Source: Fibrobacter sp.
Lineage (GTDB): Bacteria > Fibrobacterota > Fibrobacteria > Fibrobacterales > Fibrobacteraceae
Direction: 5' to 3'
NCBI GenBank assembly: GCA_024398875.1
Contig: JAKSIJ010000003.1
Coordinates: 1 to 64,000 of the forward strand
DNA: 64,000 nt
The notes under the pieces were generated by a model that was not told the origin of the DNA, made no database searches, and saw only the letters and a list, made by a program, of their open reading frames with translations. This document shows positions 12,864-20,108 of this stretch, in pieces. The translations under genes were made by a program, and so were the position numbers. Every line of letters begins with the position of its first letter. The stretch's first letter is position 1.

Positions 12864-14144
12864 CTAATCCTTGATACACCGAACAGAGAGCGCGCTGGAC
12901 TTATTGTAGTTGCTCAGGTTGGCACTCTCGCCGTTGTCCAATCGCATGTGGTAGGCGGAGTACTCATCCAGTTCGCTAGACGACCAGAAGTAGGCGCTGG
13001 TGCCCAATTCGCGGAAATTGCCATTGAAGAGTCTGATGCCTGCAGGTACAGCGGAAAAGCCGTAGCTATCCCCTCTATTGCGTCCATTCCAACTGAAGAA
13101 TTCCGTCAGGCTGGACTTCAGCTCTGTTCCCGCCGTATTTATTCCTCCAACGTTCGTGAACAAGGTATCCCATTCCGCCTTGCTGGGCAGGTGCCAGCCA
13201 CTGGGGCAAACGCCCTTAACAACAGCCAGCCAACAGGGTTTACCATATCCGCAGGTCCGGGGATTTTTAGAATCATTTGCCAAGCCAACCGAGTCAATAG
13301 CTGCCGCCCAGGTGTATAGGCGACCACCTCGATCGAGGCAATTGACACTAAATTTGTCGTAGCAATAACTCAACGTGTCTTCGTAGTCCCTAAACGGGAC
13401 TTCGTAGTTCAAATTCTGCGCCATCCAGGTCTGGGCTTTTGCACCCTCGCCGATGGTCACCACCTTGTACACCTGGCCGTCGCGGGTGTCCAGGATTTCG
13501 CCGTAGCCATTGGTGTCAAGCATATCCTGATTCAGATAACCCGTAGAAACGCATTTGTACGTTTTGCAATCATAGGTGTCGGAAGGCATCACCTCCGCCA
13601 CGGCTTCGCTGGAACTGCTTTCTTCTTCGCTGGAGCTACTTTCTTCACTGCTGGAAGAATCTTCCTCGCTGCTACTAGATTGCTTCGCTCCCGAGGAGCT
13701 CGCAATGACGTTGGAAGAGGAACTTTCCTCTGCAATCGAGGAACTGCTCTCAGCCTCGCTGCTGGAACTGGTTGCTTCTTCGCTGGAACTACTTTCTTCA
13801 CTGCTGGAAGAATCTTCTTCGCTGGAGCTGGATTGCTTCGCTCCCGAGGAGCTCGCAATGACGTTGGAAGAGGAACTTTCCTCTGCAATCGAGGAACTGC
13901 TCTCAGCCTCGCCGCTGGAGCTAGATTGCTTCGCAGACGAGCTGCTCGCAATGACGTTGGAAGAAGAACTCTCTTCTTCGCTGGAGCTGGACTTGCCCTC
14001 TTCTTCAACGGAGGAAGAGGATTCGTCCTCAACCTCGATGGAAGAACTAGACTCCTCTTCAGGACCACTGGAACTGTCGTCGCCGCAGGCGCTGAACAGG
14101 GCAAATGTAGCGAGAACCGCGGAGGAGAGAAGCAGCTTCTTCAT
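12864..14144 (-). CDS. FISUMP-domain lipoprotein with long Ser/Glu linker
   Basis: Signal peptide with lipobox FSAC (MKKLLLSSAVLATFALFSAC), so lipid-anchored. Residues about 24-185 are a low-complexity linker of SSSS blocks separated by acidic residues, including two copies of a 51-residue unit and part of a third. Residues about 205-426 are the Fibrobacter major paralogous domain: DTRDGQVYKVVTIGEGAKAQTWMAQNLNY, GRLYTWAAAID, CPSGWHLPSKAEWDTL, AYFWSSSELD and the end motif LSVRCIKD, with paired cysteines. The function of this family is not known; the anchor plus linker places the domain away from the membrane. AAGGA precedes the ATG. Confidence 0.92.
   Translation of the reverse strand: MKKLLLSSAVLATFALFSACGDDSSSGPEEESSSSIEVEDESSSSVEEEGKSSSSEEESSSSNVIASSSSAKQSSSSGEAESSSSIAEESSSSNVIASSSGAKQSSSSEEDSSSSEESSSSEEATSSSSEAESSSSIAEESSSSNVIASSSGAKQSSSSEEDSSSSEESSSSEEESSSSEAVAEVMPSDTYDCKTYKCVSTGYLNQDMLDTNGYGEILDTRDGQVYKVVTIGEGAKAQTWMAQNLNYEVPFRDYEDTLSYCYDKFSVNCLDRGGRLYTWAAAIDSVGLANDSKNPRTCGYGKPCWLAVVKGVCPSGWHLPSKAEWDTLFTNVGGINTAGTELKSSLTEFFSWNGRNRGDSYGFSAVPAGIRLFNGNFRELGTSAYFWSSSELDEYSAYHMRLDNGESANLSNYNKSSALSVRCIKD
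13678..13970 (-). repeat. Long in-gene repeats encoding the Ser/Glu linker
   Basis: A unit running from GATTGCTTCGC through the CGCAATGACGTTGGAAGA segment starts at 13678, again at 13831 (153 bases on) and, diverged and shorter, at 13924 (93 bases on). Spacings are multiples of three, so copy number can change without frameshift. Confidence 0.8.
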
Positions 14145-14584: not shown

Positions 14585-14608
14585 GTTTTCCCCGGGTTCA
14601 AAAAGAGC
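14585..14608 (+). repeat. Cassette repeat A (truncated copy, 24 bp)
   Basis: Matches the left 24 bases of the 35-bp repeat (GTTTTCCCCGGGTTC, A5, GAGC) and then diverges. It marks the left end of the array and abuts the ATPase remnant. Confidence 0.85.
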
Positions 14609-14632
14609 AATGGATTGAAAAAAAGAAGAAAT

Positions 14633-15040
14633 CTACTTTTTCAGCATTTCTAAAAAATCCCGTGGGGTAACGATAATGGGCGTTGATGGAAAATGCTTTA
14701 TATTTCCTGTAACGAGATGCGTTTCGGTTGTCTTCCCATGGGCTAGGGCGACAGAATAAAAGACGACATCTTTTGGGTCGGGTATGTTTTCTACGATTTC
14801 TGCCAAATCCTTTTCAGCAACACCCAGAATTTCTATTTGATTCATGGTTGCTTCTAGCAACATCTTTGGAAAATGAAATTTCTCTCGGTTTAGTACAAGC
14901 CTATATTCGTTTAGAATATCCTCGTTATAAACGGGAATCACGTTGCCTTCAAAAACAGCCTGCAAAACTTTGCCTGGAACGGAATCCCATTTCAGTAAGG
15001 CTGAAACGATGACATTTGTGTCGATGACCGCACAGCGCAC
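14633..15040 (-). CDS. PIN-domain toxin (COG1569-type)
   Basis: A 135-residue PIN nuclease: VIDTNVIVSALL (first metal aspartate), NEDILNEY (acidic residue), IPDPKDVVFY (aspartates) and TGNIKHFPS at the C-terminus. Such toxins cleave RNA, often tRNA. It starts with GTG overlapping the stop of the upstream antitoxin gene (TAGTG), so the two are co-translated. The pair sits alone in the cassette between the truncated repeat A and repeat B, a typical self-maintaining cargo. Confidence 0.85.
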   Translation of the reverse strand: MRCAVIDTNVIVSALLKWDSVPGKVLQAVFEGNVIPVYNEDILNEYRLVLNREKFHFPKMLLEATMNQIEILGVAEKDLAEIVENIPDPKDVVFYSVALAHGKTTETHLVTGNIKHFPSTPIIVTPRDFLEMLKK

Positions 15041-15381
15041 TAAATACCGTTCCTTGCGGCATCGATTTCGGCGTTGATTTCATCAAGACTCATGTTTGCA
15101 ACTCCAGCCTCTTGCGCTTCTGCAGAAAGAGCCTGCATAATTCGAAGCATCTGGCTGGCGGAACGCTTGGGGGAGGCGTTGTAGCATCCGCGCACATCAG
15201 CCGCCATTAACGGAGCCGTTTTGTGAGATGAAACCTCAAAGGGAATACGTCCTTCGCGAACCACCGTGCGGGCGAAAATGTTAATGGCCGTAGCCATAGA
15301 CATACCGAATTCTTCACAAAGAGAATCGAACTCCTGCTTCAGATTGCTATCCATTCTAACGCTAAAGGCTATTTGCGACAT
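15040..15381 (-). CDS. RelB/DinJ-type antitoxin
   Basis: A 113-residue protein. The N-terminal 45 residues are a ribbon-helix-helix domain (IAFSVRMDSNLKQEFDSLCEEFGMSMATAINIF), as in DinJ/RelB. The C-terminal half (from about SPKRSASQMLRIM) is the toxin-wrapping part. GGAG precedes the ATG. Pairing RelB-like with PIN is less common than with RelE/YafQ but known. It should repress its own promoter, probably through the repeat at 15427-15443. Confidence 0.85.
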   Translation of the reverse strand: MSQIAFSVRMDSNLKQEFDSLCEEFGMSMATAINIFARTVVREGRIPFEVSSHKTAPLMAADVRGCYNASPKRSASQMLRIMQALSAEAQEAGVANMSLDEINAEIDAARNGI

Positions 15382-15426
15382 ATTAGGCTCCTATTTCATA
15401 TTAAATATACAAAAATGCAACCTAAA

Positions 15427-15443
15427 TGGTATCGTAATGGTAT
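15427..15443. promoter_or_regulatory. Candidate antitoxin operator
   Basis: Direct repeat TGGTAT (15427-15432 and 15438-15443), eleven bases apart (about one helical turn), 45 bases upstream of the antitoxin start. This spacing suits paired ribbon-helix-helix dimers. Confidence 0.45.
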
Positions 15444-15511
15444 GATTTTGTTGAAATTTGCACTTAATTCCTTGATCAGGGATTTGTGTCAAAGAATTGC
15501 CGAATCTTCAA

Positions 15512-15546
15512 GTTTTCCTCGGGTTCCAAAAGAGCCCCTATAAGAT
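15512..15546 (+). repeat. Cassette repeat B (35 bp)
   Basis: Full copy with CTCGGGTTCC in the left arm. It separates the toxin-antitoxin cassette from the outer-membrane-protein cassette. Confidence 0.92.
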
Positions 15547-15611
15547 TAAATATAGACCCGCCCCCAAGGGACGAGTCAATAGGGAAAATAGGAAATTTTG
15601 AAAAGACGTGA

Positions 15612-16226
15612 TTAGAACGGAATGTTGAAACCGATGTTGAATAGGCCGCGCTGGCCCCACCCGAGCAGTTGAAAGTGGACCCATCCAATCTCAAGTCCGA
15701 GAAGTGTTAGGTGACCCATCGGAACGACGCCTTTGCCGATAGCGGCCATTACGCCGGCATCCAGTTCCATGTAGGGGTTCACGAATCCGTTGTTGTTGAA
15801 ATTGATTTTCGCCCTCGGCATGAAGGTAAGGAAAAAGAGGTCCTGGGTGGGCATGGCAAAATTGGCGACGAGACCCGTTTCGAACATGTCGTTGACCTTG
15901 TAGCCATAGTTAATGGAAAATGCACCGACGATTAGTGTGGGGTCTTCATCGTTTCCTAAAGAAAAGAGTGACGTCAGGGCCGTGCTTAAGGCACCGATAA
16001 AATCGCTTACTGTCAAAAATCCATATTCAATGCCTAGGGTGTGCCTGTTCTTGAGTTCCTGCTTATTGCTTTCATTGGCTGCTAGGCTTGAATCCTGAAT
16101 CTGCGGTTCGACATATTGCGCCTCGTCATTTGCAGGCGGGATGGGCTGTACCGCGTTTTCCTGTGCGAAGGTTGCGCTGCACAGGCTGACGGTCATGGCT
16201 AGGGAGATTGCGAAAAAATGTTTCAT
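15612..16226 (-). CDS. Exported outer-membrane-like protein of unknown function
   Basis: A 204-residue protein with a clear signal peptide (MKHFFAISLAMTVSLCSATFAQ), then an acidic/proline linker to about residue 55, then alternating hydrophobic/aromatic segments (LGIEYGFLTVSDFIGAL, INYGYKVNDMFETGLVANF, GHLTLLGLEIGWVHFQLL) ending in F, as in small beta-barrels. AAGGAA precedes the ATG. It is complete and alone between repeats B and C. I do not recognise the family. Confidence 0.7.
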   Translation of the reverse strand: MKHFFAISLAMTVSLCSATFAQENAVQPIPPANDEAQYVEPQIQDSSLAANESNKQELKNRHTLGIEYGFLTVSDFIGALSTALTSLFSLGNDEDPTLIVGAFSINYGYKVNDMFETGLVANFAMPTQDLFFLTFMPRAKINFNNNGFVNPYMELDAGVMAAIGKGVVPMGHLTLLGLEIGWVHFQLLGWGQRGLFNIGFNIPF

Positions 16227-16270
16227 ACGAGTTCCTTGTAGAAAATGACGGCATCCACGAATCCGAGTTT

Positions 16271-16305
16271 GTTTTCCTCATGCTCAAAAAGAGCCCCTAT
16301 AAGAT
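16271..16305 (+). repeat. Cassette repeat C (35 bp)
   Basis: Full copy with CTCATGCTC in the left arm, so GCTC-AAAAA-GAGC forms a perfect short dyad. Confidence 0.92.
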
Positions 16306-16400
16306 TTGAAACTAAAACCTAAAACAGTGTTAATTACAGAAGCCATACCCTAAATATAGAGCATGGCTAAATAAAATAATAGATTTTTGAACCATCTTTT

Positions 16401-16847
16401 TTATAGATGTATGTTCTTAAAAAGAATATCCATATAATAACAGACTATAGACGGAACCAAATTAAAAACACCCATCAAAGCAATCGAATTCAGCGGCCCA
16501 TACGAGTCATCCATAAACGAAGCCCAACAAATTGTCAAAATCAGCGAAACTCCAAAAGTTACGGCCATGGCACCTGAAGCATTTTTCTTGATCTCATCAG
16601 AAATACAGGCAACACTCATTATTGTAAAATCATACAAATAAAACGGAACCAAGGCGAACCACATATAAAGAGCCCTGTCAGTAAAGAACGGAACAGACAT
16701 TCCGGCAAAAAACAAAAACAACGGAACGAAAAGACCCCATTTATCCTCTTTCGATTCAAATAAAGAAATATGAAAAGATTCAAATTCCTTCTTTGAACGT
16801 TCATTATATTCTTTGATTTCTTCTTGCGTCATATCAATAATATACAT
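16401..16847 (-). CDS. Small four-helix membrane protein
   Basis: A 148-residue protein. A charged N-terminus (MTQEEIKEYNERSKKEFE) is followed by about four membrane segments (WGLFVPLFLFFAGMSVPFF; LYMWFALVPFYLYDFTIM; AMAVTFGVSLILTICWASF; IALMGVFNLVPSIVCYYM). No family recognised. Possible starts are ATG at 16847 (AGTGGA upstream), 16832 or 16871. It is the sole gene between repeats C and D. Confidence 0.65.
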   Translation of the reverse strand: MYIIDMTQEEIKEYNERSKKEFESFHISLFESKEDKWGLFVPLFLFFAGMSVPFFTDRALYMWFALVPFYLYDFTIMSVACISDEIKKNASGAMAVTFGVSLILTICWASFMDDSYGPLNSIALMGVFNLVPSIVCYYMDILFKNIHL

Positions 16848-16897
16848 TATTCCACTGTCAAATTTTAACATCTAGTTTAACTTTTGGGGTTAATCTT

Positions 16898-16932
16898 GTT
16901 TTCCTCGGGTTCAAAAAGAGCCCCTATAAGAT
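16898..16932 (+). repeat. Cassette repeat D (35 bp)
   Basis: Full copy with CTCGGGTTC in the left arm. It opens the smallest cassette, which is 206 bases between repeats. Confidence 0.92.
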
Positions 16933-16984
16933 TTAAGGATAAAATGACAGAAAAATAAGGTATATTTCTATCGGAGGTAGTCAA

Positions 16985-17128
16985 ATGCTGGTACTGACTA
17001 ACATCGTCTTACTCACACTGATAGTTGAAAATTGGGTTCTTTCGTCAAAAATCAAGAAGATACAGAAGCAGATAGAGGACTTGAAGATGGAAAACACCAT
17101 CCTTTACGAGCTTCAAAAGCGTAAATAA
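16985..17128 (+). CDS. 47-residue membrane-anchored coiled-coil protein
   Basis: A short gene filling the smallest cassette. Translation gives MLVLTNIVLLTLIVENWVL, one membrane helix, then SKIKKIQKQIEDLKMEN and a basic end, a heptad-like coiled coil. Gene signals are good: GGAGG seven bases before the ATG and TATATT about 25 bases upstream. Unlike the cassette genes on the minus strand it reads plus. The size and form recall phage Rz-like proteins, small toxins or leader membrane peptides; none can be shown. Confidence 0.65.
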   Translation: MLVLTNIVLLTLIVENWVLSSKIKKIQKQIEDLKMENTILYELQKRK

Positions 17129-17138
17129 GAATTTACAA

Positions 17139-17173
17139 GTTTTCCCCGTGCTCAAAAAGAGCCCCTATAAGAT
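17139..17173 (+). repeat. Cassette repeat E (35 bp)
   Basis: Full copy with CCCGTGCTC in the left arm. It ends three bases before the stop codon of the next minus-strand gene. Confidence 0.92.
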
Positions 17174-17176
17174 ATA

Positions 17177-17836
17177 TCAATCCCTTATACAGCGAATAGA
17201 TAATTGATGTTCGCCAGAGCTATTTATGTTACCAACAACGCCACCGATACCGATTTCATATGCCCCATACGCGTCTTTCATTGTTGACGACCAAAAATTT
17301 CCTCCATAATACATATAAGTTCCCTTCCCTGATTCGTACAGGTATCCACTTGGTATTACAGAAAAACCACAATCATCAGTACCCTTTTCTCGGCTTTCAT
17401 CCCACAAAGATGATGTACTTTGTAACCTAAGAGCTGTTGGTTCATCTTGGTATCCACCAACTGTTCCAATCATTTGAGACCATTCTTCATTTGATGGCAA
17501 ATGCCATCCAACAGGACATATTGTATCCACTTTATTCCAATCAAGAATATCTGAATCTCCTTCTTGCAACGCGTAAAAACGCCCCCAAAAGTCGCAATTT
17601 AATTTATCATTGTCATAGCAGGTACTATAATCAACATTGTAATTCAAGTTCTCTGCCATCCAAACCTAGTTGCCAATAGTCGTGTATTTATACACTTGTC
17701 CGTCACGTTCATCAATGAACGTTCCGCGACCGCTTTCTGGACAGACTTCGCTAGCGTTCCAACTATTGCTATCGTCAGAACACGATGCTAAGAACGCGGC
17801 AAGAGCGATTGACAAAAAAGCTTGTTTCTTATTCAT
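17177..17836 (-). pseudogene. FISUMP lipoprotein with in-frame amber stop
   Basis: From the ATG at 17836 the frame reads MNKKQAFLSIALAAFLASCSDD (signal peptide with lipobox LASC), then DERDGQVYKYTTIGN, a TAG at 17666-17668, and continues in the same frame VWMAENLNYNVDYSTCYDN to CPVGWHLPSNEEWSQM, FWSSTMKD and LSIRCIRD. Family members have Q where the TAG stands (CAG to TAG). All else is intact, so the change is recent, or the stop is read through. A protein restarted at the M at 17659 would lack a signal peptide. It is the only gene between repeats E and F. Confidence 0.85.
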
Positions 17837-17856
17837 TTTGATTACCTCTATTTTAA

Positions 17857-17891
17857 GTTTTCCCTGTGTTCAAAAAGAGCCCCTATAAGAT
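17857..17891 (+). repeat. Cassette repeat F (35 bp)
   Basis: Full copy with CCTGTGTTC in the left arm, 20 bases beyond the start codon of the minus-strand FISUMP gene, so that gene's promoter would have to lie in or beyond the repeat. Confidence 0.92.
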
Positions 17892-17995
17892 TTAATCCAA
17901 TCATCTATACCCTGTGTTTTATTCTGCACAGTATTATCGATATTATAAGGATCATTATTCAATGGGTTAGAAAGCCCTTGTTTTTTTTGCAAATT

Positions 17996-18787
17996 TTACG
18001 GAACCCAAAAACCGATATAACCAATATACGAACGGCATGCAATGCGTTCGTCAGGTTTCAATTTTGAAAAATCAAAATGCAGTTGACTTTCGCCTTTTGT
18101 CACAACAAACTTTCTTGGGTCATCCTTCCCATTAGGCAGAAAACCGTTTTTCTCCACTTCCTTATAAACTTTGCATGTTATCTGTTCTTCTAGCTTTGAC
18201 CTTGCACGGATCAAGTTGCTATCAGGAGTCAACTCCACCCTTACAAAATCATCTCGTATCCATTTACTAATTTCCCTAGTTATGGTTTCCATCTTCAGGG
18301 ACTGCGTAACTCCTCCCGGTCCCTGTGCAATCGCATACGCAAGTTTACCTTCATGCCTAAAGGACACATTTATTGATGCAAAAGGGATTCGATTGGGATT
18401 AACCATTAAAGTTTCCGATTCAAAACCTTTCAGGGATGTTACAATTCTTGTGTAAGTAGCTGTATCGTTTAAAGTGTCCTTCTTAATAGATTCCCATTCC
18501 ATCAAAGAATCACTCATGTCTGCATCGTAATAAATGGTCCTCACAACAATCCACGAGGAATCCAAAGGAATCTTTTCAAAGGTTGCGTAATAATTCTCAC
18601 GCTCTGTTTCAAACATTTGAAAAATTCCAATATAATCATTTCTGTTGCTAGCCGTATCTTGACTTGGCTCTACTTCTTGCATATAAACAACAAGTTTCTC
18701 TTTTTTAGGAGAACTCGTCGTGGGTCGACCAACGCACGCCTGCAAAAGAATGGCGCACAATATAAAGAAACAAAAACGCACTTTCAT
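17996..18787 (-). CDS. Lipoprotein of unknown function
   Basis: A 263-residue protein. The signal peptide ends in lipobox LQAC (MKVRFCFFILCAILLQAC). The mature part is mixed alpha/beta without a motif that I recognise; it contains YVVDAD-like acidic stretches and ends GYIGFWVP. I prefer the ATG at 18787 over an upstream TTG. A TATATT-like hexamer lies about ten bases upstream, right after the hairpin at 18811-18825, so it seems to have its own promoter. Single gene between repeats F and G. Confidence 0.7.
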   Translation of the reverse strand: MKVRFCFFILCAILLQACVGRPTTSSPKKEKLVVYMQEVEPSQDTASNRNDYIGIFQMFETERENYYATFEKIPLDSSWIVVRTIYYDADMSDSLMEWESIKKDTLNDTATYTRIVTSLKGFESETLMVNPNRIPFASINVSFRHEGKLAYAIAQGPGGVTQSLKMETITREISKWIRDDFVRVELTPDSNLIRARSKLEEQITCKVYKEVEKNGFLPNGKDDPRKFVVTKGESQLHFDFSKLKPDERIACRSYIGYIGFWVP

Positions 18788-18810
18788 CGCTTTTTTCAAT
18801 ATAACAAAAA

Positions 18811-18825
18811 AGCCCCTACGGGGCT
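18811..18825. terminator. Bidirectional terminator hairpin next to repeat G
   Basis: AGCCCC-TAC-GGGGCT with an A6 run on the left and a T-rich stretch on the right. It insulates the lipoprotein gene from transcription entering across repeat G. Its AGCCCCTA half also occurs inside the 35-bp repeat. Confidence 0.75.
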
Positions 18826-18832
18826 CTGTTTT

Positions 18833-18867
18833 GTTTTCCCCGTGCTCAAAAAGAGCCCCTATAAGAT
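18833..18867 (+). repeat. Cassette repeat G (35 bp)
   Basis: Full copy with CCCGTGCTC in the left arm. A headless gene fragment starts immediately after it. Confidence 0.92.
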
Positions 18868-18869
18868 GA

Positions 18870-19037
18870 AAGAATGGGTTTAAGCCTTTAACTGTCGAGG
18901 ATCTTAATGAAAGATTTGAAACAACATCTAAAATTGAAGATAGGGAGTATAGTTACTTAATCGACATAGAAAAAATAAAAGACTCCCCGAAATTTAGGGA
19001 GTTGATAGGATTCTTTAACACGCAATCAAAAAATTAA
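18870..19037 (+). pseudogene. C-terminal gene fragment cut at repeat G
   Basis: An open frame of 55 codons starts directly after the repeat (the repeat's final T begins a TGA in this frame) and has no start codon. It reads KNGFKPLTVEDLNERFETTS, then YLIDIEKIKDSPKFRELIGF and ends at TAA (19035-19037). Composition is protein-like and highly charged. It looks like the 3' end of a gene whose 5' part was removed exactly at the repeat. No family recognised. Confidence 0.55.
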
Positions 19038-19047
19038 ATCAAAAATG

Positions 19048-19278
19048 TTAATCATTGCTAAAGAATTTTACCCAATATGGATTCTCTTTGTCAAACAAAG
19101 CTTTTTCTTCTTTTGAAAAATTTTTAGGGTAGTCTCCAAAAATGAATAAAATTTTCTTTTTGTCAAAAGAAACAGCGTGAACTCCACATTGCCCGATATA
19201 ACGAACATGCCAAATTTTATCTCCTTCATGCTTCTTGTAGAATTCGATTTTTTCCGTTTCTTTGTCAACCGTGATCAT
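19048..19278 (-). CDS. Small hypothetical protein
   Basis: A 76-residue protein with GAGGGAGAGG before its ATG (MITVDKETEKIEFYKKHEGD). Strand-rich, with aromatic and lysine residues (KIWHVRYIG, KKKILFIFGDYPKN). The gene seems complete and lies between the plus-strand fragment on its left and a divergent plus-strand gene on its right. No family recognised; small acidic/basic proteins in such places can be immunity proteins, but nothing here shows it. Confidence 0.55.
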   Translation of the reverse strand: MITVDKETEKIEFYKKHEGDKIWHVRYIGQCGVHAVSFDKKKILFIFGDYPKNFSKEEKALFDKENPYWVKFFSND

Positions 19279-19328
19279 GCTTAACCTCTCCCTCTAATAT
19301 ACCTCTTTTCCCAAGGAAATGCAACCCC

Positions 19329-19420
19329 ATGGCAGATATCATCAACGCAACCATAGACGACAAACAGTTCGAAGTGTATGTCAGGATGATGAAGGAGCGC
19401 TCCGAGAACCTGAAGCCGGT
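19329..19420 (+). pseudogene. N-terminal fragment of a phage-morphogenesis-like gene, cut at repeat H
   Basis: A normal start (AAGGAAA before ATG) leads into MADIINATIDDKQFEVYVRM, which resembles the N-terminus of phage virion-morphogenesis/tail-completion proteins (gpG-like). After 30 codons the frame runs into repeat H at 19421 and continues as repeat-encoded sequence. The gene is therefore truncated exactly at the repeat's left boundary. The family match is short and tentative. Confidence 0.5.
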
Positions 19421-19455
19421 GTTTTCCTCGAGTTCAAAAAGAGCCCCTATAAGAT
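19421..19455 (+). repeat. Cassette repeat H (35 bp)
   Basis: Full copy with CTCGAGTTC in the left arm. It truncates the phage-like gene on its left and abuts an open minus-strand frame on its right. Confidence 0.92.
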
Positions 19456-19697
19456 CAGATTGCGCAGCCTCTTCCGGGGAAAAGGACATAGACCCCTGCG
19501 CGGGTCGTCCGCCACCCTGAATCCGTGGGTGGGCCTCGTTCTGCCCCACTCGGGGCATATTGGTTGGAGACGTACCAGATTCCAGTTGCGCGGAGGCTGT
19601 GGTGATGCCCCCGTTGTCGATGTTCTCCCCATCCTCGCGGGTAGGGGCGTCTCCTAATTCGTGGACGGGGAGGGTGTCGGTCCCCCTGGATAGTCGA
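19456..19697 (-). pseudogene. Internal gene fragment trapped between repeats H and I
   Basis: One minus-strand frame stays open over all 242 bases with no start or stop of its own: it includes DTLPVHELGDAPTREDGENI and MPRVGQNEAHPRIQGGGRPA, ending FSPEEAAQSD at repeat H. It is rich in G, P and acidic residues and more GC-rich than neighbours. It could be a C-terminal piece of a phage structural protein, but I cannot assign it. Confidence 0.4.
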
Positions 19698-19733
19698 GTT
19701 TTCCTCGGGTTCCAAAAGAGCCCCCTATAAGAT
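19698..19733 (+). repeat. Cassette repeat I (36 bp)
   Basis: Last copy, with one extra C in the right arm (GAGCCCCC). It closes the array; no further copies were seen to the right. Confidence 0.9.
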
Positions 19734-19837
19734 GTCTTTTGCTAAAACACCTTATTTTATGCGGGTTGGCAATCGGTTTGCCGTTGAAAAAAATCAGAAA
19801 AATTCAATGAAATCCTTTATTTTAGGCTAGATTTTGT

Positions 19838-19855: not shown

Positions 19856-19900
19856 CCTTTTACACCACAGCCGAAGTCAAGAAGCTGCCAGCCAACAGGT

Positions 19901-20089
19901 ATGGCCGTGCCAAACGTTAAGTGGTCCGATATTGCGTTGCAAAGAATCCACGAGGCTGCCGACCATATTGCGAAAGATGCCCCACATGCGGCAATCAAGT
20001 GGACCGAGGAACTGTTCAGGCAGGAAGCCGTAATACCAAAACTCCCGTTTGTAGGCAGAATGGTTCCTAAAATCAGGGACGAAAAATAG
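19901..20089 (+). pseudogene. ParE/RelE-type toxin, truncated
   Basis: The 62-residue frame begins MAVPNVKWSDIALQRIHEAA and reaches FVGRMVPKIRDEK, matching the first two thirds of ParE toxins. The C-terminal strands with the usual IREIxxGNYRIxY motif are missing because of an early TAG. Just upstream, overlapping the start in another frame, is what may be the tail of a lost antitoxin (TTAEVKKLPANRYGRAKR then stop), with no beginning. Both pieces are probably dead. Confidence 0.65.
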
Positions 20090-20108
20090 TATATTTCCCC
20101 TGGAACCC

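Follow-up and report, generated by a model that had tools for sequence, protein, structure and literature searches.

Rumen-type Fibrobacter appear to have turned a CRISPR memory machine into a gene-collecting machine. The 35-bp element at positions 15512-15546 (+ strand; GTTTTCCTCGGGTTCCAAAAGAGCCCCTATAAGAT) of the 64,000-nucleotide stretch of Fibrobacter DNA analyzed here, henceforth the window, is with a probability of roughly 0.8 the repeat of a type II-derived CRISPR-Cas adaptation module that lacks Cas9 and in which Cas1-Cas2 would insert DNA of ~0.15-1 kb and thereby assemble an integron-like gene collector. We assign it to the CRISPR type because a conserved leader adjoins the last copy of each array and, in nine Fibrobacter genomes, cas2-cas1 occur within ~400 bp of such a leader. 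The 35-bp length, the duplication at the leader end, and the dyad all fit a CRISPR repeat read by Cas1-Cas2. In the open-access literature searched, we found no earlier description of such a gene-storing array.

Gene-sized inserts between direct repeats

The window holds nine direct copies of the repeat between 14585 and 19733, all on the + strand and 240-980 bp apart, a count that includes one copy with an extra C (19698-19733) and one truncated copy (14585-14608). Matches to the 3' part of the repeat with at most three mismatches number seven in the window versus none in 100 dinucleotide shuffles. The DNA between the copies is mutually unrelated, and each interval usually carries one small gene or gene fragment.

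The distal-most, truncated copy retains 24 of 35 bp (GTTTTCCCCGGGTTCAAAAAGAGC, +) before it diverges. Insert 1 (14609-15511, 903 bp) encodes a PIN toxin (14633-15040, -) and a RelB-type antitoxin (15040-15381, -), matched in Pfam by PIN_3 (E 8.8e-17) and RelB (E 3.8e-10). Toxin-antitoxin pairs like this one in the distal insert (14633-15381) may stabilize the array, as in integrons. The repeat under study is followed by insert 2 (15547-16270, 724 bp), which consists of a complete gene for a signal-peptide protein (15612-16226, -) with a terminator-like hairpin at its 3' end; the product has no match in Pfam or PHROGs. After the next repeat (16271-16305, +), insert 3 (16306-16897, 592 bp) contains a small membrane-protein gene (16401-16871, -) whose family recurs in the arrays of other species, and the repeat at 16898-16932 (+) leads to insert 4 (16933-17138, 206 bp), with an ORF of 47 amino acids (16985-17128, +). 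Inserts 5 and 6, preceded by repeats at 17139-17173 and 17857-17891 (both +), carry lipoprotein genes: insert 5 (17174-17856, 683 bp) a Fib_succ_major gene on the - strand, now with an in-frame TAG, and insert 6 (17892-18832, 941 bp) a lipoprotein-like gene at ~17996-18799 (-). Beyond the repeat at 18833-18867 (+), insert 7 (18868-19420, 553 bp) combines a DUF7675 gene (19048-19278, -) with the start of a phage head-tail gene that is cut by the repeat. A further repeat (19421-19455, +) precedes insert 8 (19456-19697, 242 bp, GC 63%), in which no gene was recognized, and the array closes with the leader-proximal, one-extra-C copy (+). To the left of the array, a lipoprotein-like gene at 12864-14144 contains long tandem repeats rich in serine (153-bp units), and its C-terminal part resembles Fib_succ_major proteins.

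A weight-matrix scan of the genus, with repeat hits scoring 40-59 and a shuffled maximum of 5.4, yielded 57 distinct inserts of 145-1017 bp and none of ~30 bp. Since some of the arrays lie in nearly complete genomes (G063, G046), this gene-sized pattern is not an assembly artefact. Intact repeats directly adjoin each insert on either side, and repeats within one array are often identical. The longest ATG-initiated ORF covers a median of 70% of the insert length, and ORFs point away from the leader more often than towards it (34:13, p = 0.003). Pfam and PHROGs identify few inserts, and PADLOC recognized none of 45 insert ORFs as a known defence gene. DUF7675 (phrog_6473), which occurs in Mu-like prophages including one in the window's own genome, turns up in a dozen or more array inserts; its ORF is intact there, the insert ends differ, and start-to-repeat distances range from 2 to 283 bp. 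This phage gene thus appears to have been captured at least a dozen times, and two of its copies, which share 99.6% identity, lie in opposite orientations.

Leader and cas genes

The last repeat of each array abuts a conserved leader. About 100 bp are common to six array ends from three genomes, 34 leaders can be aligned, and in 34 arrays the leader-proximal repeat stands at a fixed distance from the leader; copies of the leader core ACCTTATTTTATGCGG occur throughout the genus, and almost all of them have a repeat 15-16 bp away. The window leader spans 19734-19825, with the core at 19749-19764. Most relatives' leaders contain the motif TTGCGA-N17-TATATT on the other strand, facing the array, and this looks like a promoter reading into the array. 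Its counterpart in the window (19744-19772, -) has a -35 element TTGCCA (19767-19772), a 17-bp spacer, and a -10 element TGTTTT (19744-19749) that is poorer than the relatives' TATATT.

In nine Fibrobacter genomes, the window's included, cas2 and then a type II cas1 follow the leader at ~400 bp. This arrangement occurs at a second array of the window's genome (G000:C5) and in G021, G022, G064, G073, G046, G018, and G069; the cas1 of G047 is split into two frames, and that of G052 lies on a separate small contig, the contig with the leader having run out. The leader-adjoining Cas1 matches TIGR03639 (E 7.6e-88) and Cas2 matches TIGR01573. Cas1 can be aligned with the solved type II Cas1 proteins 4zkj and 5xvn. 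All seven sequences compared keep its E-H-E residues E149, H206, and E221, which have identical counterparts at the aligned positions of 4zkj. Cas9 (TIGR01865) has no match in G000, G021, G022, G052, G064, or G073. A second Cas1 group of the genus always sits beside Cas9 and 48-bp repeats with a 78-bp period, and it serves as a positive control: ordinary CRISPR is recognizable in these assemblies. At another locus (L060, G050:C9), a full-length Cas9 is accompanied by a highly divergent type II Cas1, which makes up a third lineage within the genus.

No cas1-cas2 pair accompanies the window array itself, the pair lying beside the G000:C5 array, and several genomes contain arrays and no cas1 at all. 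With cas1 missing from these places, acquisition there would be past or would proceed in trans. Because it is linked to cas1-cas2, we interpret the conserved sequence as a CRISPR leader; with that linkage, its candidacy as an attI site or as an rRNA/tRNA promoter with boxA was dropped. A 16S search made around this question found none in this assembly.

Several observations concern the surroundings of leaders. Just right of the window leader, 19870-20090 reads as a fragment like the start of a ParE/RelE-type toxin, in the place where cas-linked arrays would have cas2. Five loci (L076, L077, L081, L096, L097) have just one repeat next to a leader, close to a tRNA. This arrangement is conserved across several species, including some that lack cas1 altogether; such a locus is a vertically kept, nearly empty array. 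At four others (L082, L094, L098, L099), a conserved ~1.7-kb HipA-HipB toxin-antitoxin unit (HipA_C E 2.4e-49) joins two tandem arrays, between the leader of one and the distal repeat of the next; L092 has a shortened version of this unit.

Sources of the inserts and mode of arrival

The search for sources covered 80 Fibrobacter genomes and scored a small number of candidates in each, so that more may exist. Four inserts, two of them from the window, match DNA outside any array, either along the whole insert or starting at one junction; the match extends to both insert ends for only two sources and is one-ended for several. The sources are a Mu-like prophage and chromosomal genes of other Fibrobacter. 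The insert L093:9798-10814 is 99.0% identical over all 1017 bp to Mu-like prophage DNA of G070, where the corresponding segment is cut inside genes at both ends and has no repeat. Window insert 2 (15547-16270) matches a repeat-free chromosomal locus (G021:C37) in which part of the gene is deleted, and the homology stops exactly at both repeats. Insert 5 (17174-17856) shares 98% identity with a chromosomal lipoprotein gene of G002 that is free of repeats and sits between exbD-like and tonB-like genes; homology starts exactly at the repeat and fades over the last 40 bp, and the in-frame TAG of the insert is CAG in G002. For part of one G076 insert, loci without repeats in G044, G050, and G071 show 97-99% identity.

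One genome pair provides a clean comparison of a locus with and without an insertion. G047 and G064 share a locus with flanks 98.7-99.4% identical, at which G064 has an extra 363-bp insert and one extra 35-bp repeat, positioned exactly between the leader and the first insert. A gain at the leader with repeat duplication is the outcome that would be expected of Cas1-Cas2 acquisition.

How the DNA reaches the integrase may be reflected in the insert ends. In 13/47 inserts, the gene's 3' junction coincides with the end of a terminator-like hairpin and its T-rich tail, against backgrounds of 6% at internal positions (p 4e-6) and 9% at downstream intergenic positions (p 1e-4), with one insert counted twice (98% identical copies) and a criterion set after a few examples had been seen. 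A stricter first criterion gave no excess (3/47 inserts). We treat the excess as a lead hinting at transcript-linked capture and not as a result. Capture might be tied to transcripts, with Cas1-Cas2 receiving mRNA-derived DNA copies or DNA that opens where transcription ends; the arrays would then form a heritable memory of expressed genes, with DUF7675 recaptured because it protects against related Mu-like phages. We hold this extended scenario to be rather unlikely.

The module is clearly CRISPR-derived and many of its arrays are orphans, which would suit decayed ordinary CRISPR arrays whose long intervals arose later by homologous recombination, repeat deletion, or insertion between old repeats. 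We nevertheless consider such decay very unlikely: identical repeats are frequent within arrays, none of the 57 intervals is a normal-length spacer, the inserts match contiguous source DNA flush up to intact repeats, and the recent leader-end insertion in one of two near-identical loci was already gene-sized.

The first-pass annotation had placed the repeat among recombinase core sites, on the plan of dif and other tyrosine-recombinase sites. Its account of the arms was accurate: the left arm varies in the window, at positions 8-13 and 15-16, and the right arm GAGCCCCTATAAGAT is constant save for the extra C of the 19698 copy. The inverted arms around a short centre are likewise real, forming an imperfect GARCC/GGYTC dyad around a 5-bp loop. 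As RNA, the + strand of the window repeat reaches a folding energy of -9.0 kcal/mol (z -2.7) and its - strand folds weakly; the + strand of a commoner variant reaches -10.3 (z -3.7). In 62 distinct repeats of the genus, the inner stem (12-24, 13-23, 14-22, 15-21) and the outer stem (1-35 to 5-31) are nearly always kept as Watson-Crick or G-T pairs, the latter mostly at 1-35, 3-33, and 13-23. Positions 10-11 versus 25-26 mostly lack such pairing.

A dyad with a short centre, single genes between sites, a unit of difference consisting of insert plus repeat, and an orientation bias would all be compatible with a tyrosine recombinase core site, of a Xer/dif module, an integron, or similar, between whose copies cassettes move as circles. 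However, the three tyrosine recombinases of the genome are all located elsewhere, none next to any array, and the XerCD-type dif consensus (11-6-11 bp) is absent from the genome at up to three mismatches. Source copies without a site, insert ends inside genes, and the same gene in both orientations are not what recombination between two core sites predicts, and the leader is linked to cas1-cas2. We therefore put little weight on this interpretation, which we judge very improbable: what stands of the original claim is a repeated dyad site at which DNA integrates, leaving a repeat on each side, while the enzyme and its family were wrong.

Least credible of all is a repeat that is an RNA or transcription element copied between operon genes, with an incidental cas1 link; its hairpin on folding and, by sequence reading, a -10-like TATAAG and a boxA-like GGCTCTTT on its other strand are outweighed by the fixed leader-repeat distance in 34 arrays, the neighbouring cas1-cas2 in nine genomes, and insert ends flush with the repeat. 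The repeat could have a role in transcription in addition to integration. In viral contigs, the only trace of it was a single 17-bp match with no array, which we take as chance.

Origin, proposed mechanism, and related systems

The Fibrobacter Cas1 group is monophyletic (support 100/99). Outside the genus, the closest Cas1 proteins (54% identity) come from Bacteroidales loci that have an ORF of Cas9 size upstream and, on contigs that extend far enough, arrays of 36-bp repeats with a 66-bp period. The sister of the Fibrobacter group, with 98/98 support and a long branch, comes from a roe-deer rumen Alloprevotella whose locus L159 (JAFUZP010000016.1, 8001-12165) has cas1, cas2, no Cas9-sized ORF, and 36-bp repeats. 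Two full copies and one degenerate copy lie 0.6 and 2.3 kb apart with genes between them, and a pattern search of this genome found the two full copies and no others. Based on this one genome, the gene-collecting form may be older than Fibrobacter.

We propose that Cas1-Cas2, encoded in the window's genome at G000:C5, would integrate double-stranded DNA of ~0.15-1 kb next to the leader, each event duplicating the 35-bp repeat as in ordinary spacer acquisition. The array would grow into a series of captured genes and pieces of genes, taken from phages and other Fibrobacter and mostly oriented for reading from the leader, and would work like an integron built on a CRISPR integrase. Linkage, conservation, and geometry point to Cas1-Cas2 as the probable enzyme for the long inserts; expression of the inserts from the leader, and a benefit from the captured genes, are presumed. 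Known Cas1-Cas2 complexes measure short prespacers, and we identified no feature that explains the long inserts. If the proposal is right, the length control of Cas1-Cas2 can be lost, leaving an integrase able to write gene-sized DNA at a short site. The CRISPR integrase would then be a general gene-capture machine with an ordered array, a third solution beside integrons and transposons, and the possibility of immunity by stored phage genes would be raised.

The module shares with type II CRISPR-Cas of Bacteroidales a TIGR03639 Cas1 with E-H-E residues, Cas2, a leader beside cas2, a repeat of 35-36 bp, and duplication at the leader end (one pair, G047/G064). It departs from type II systems in having no Cas9 and in holding gene-carrying inserts of 145-1017 bp instead of ~30-bp spacers; its repeat is palindromic and unrelated in sequence to those of Bacteroidales, and several loci per genome are without cas genes. 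Like casposons and solo Cas1 integrases, it would employ Cas1 on long DNA without a CRISPR effector, but it has Cas2, a leader-repeat array, and many inserts, which lack terminal inverted repeats and apparently polymerase genes; no long inverted repeats were found in the array region. Short dyad sites flank gene modules as in Xer-dif (pdif) modules, whereas Xer-like arms, a 6-bp spacer, and XerC/XerD linkage are missing and the repeats are direct only. From integrons the arrays differ in having no IntI beside them, no attC, and incoming DNA without a recurring site that enters in both orientations and with gene-internal ends; what they have in common with integrons is mostly one-gene inserts, a promoter-like motif that reads in from one end, insertion at this same end, an orientation bias, and toxin-antitoxin inserts.
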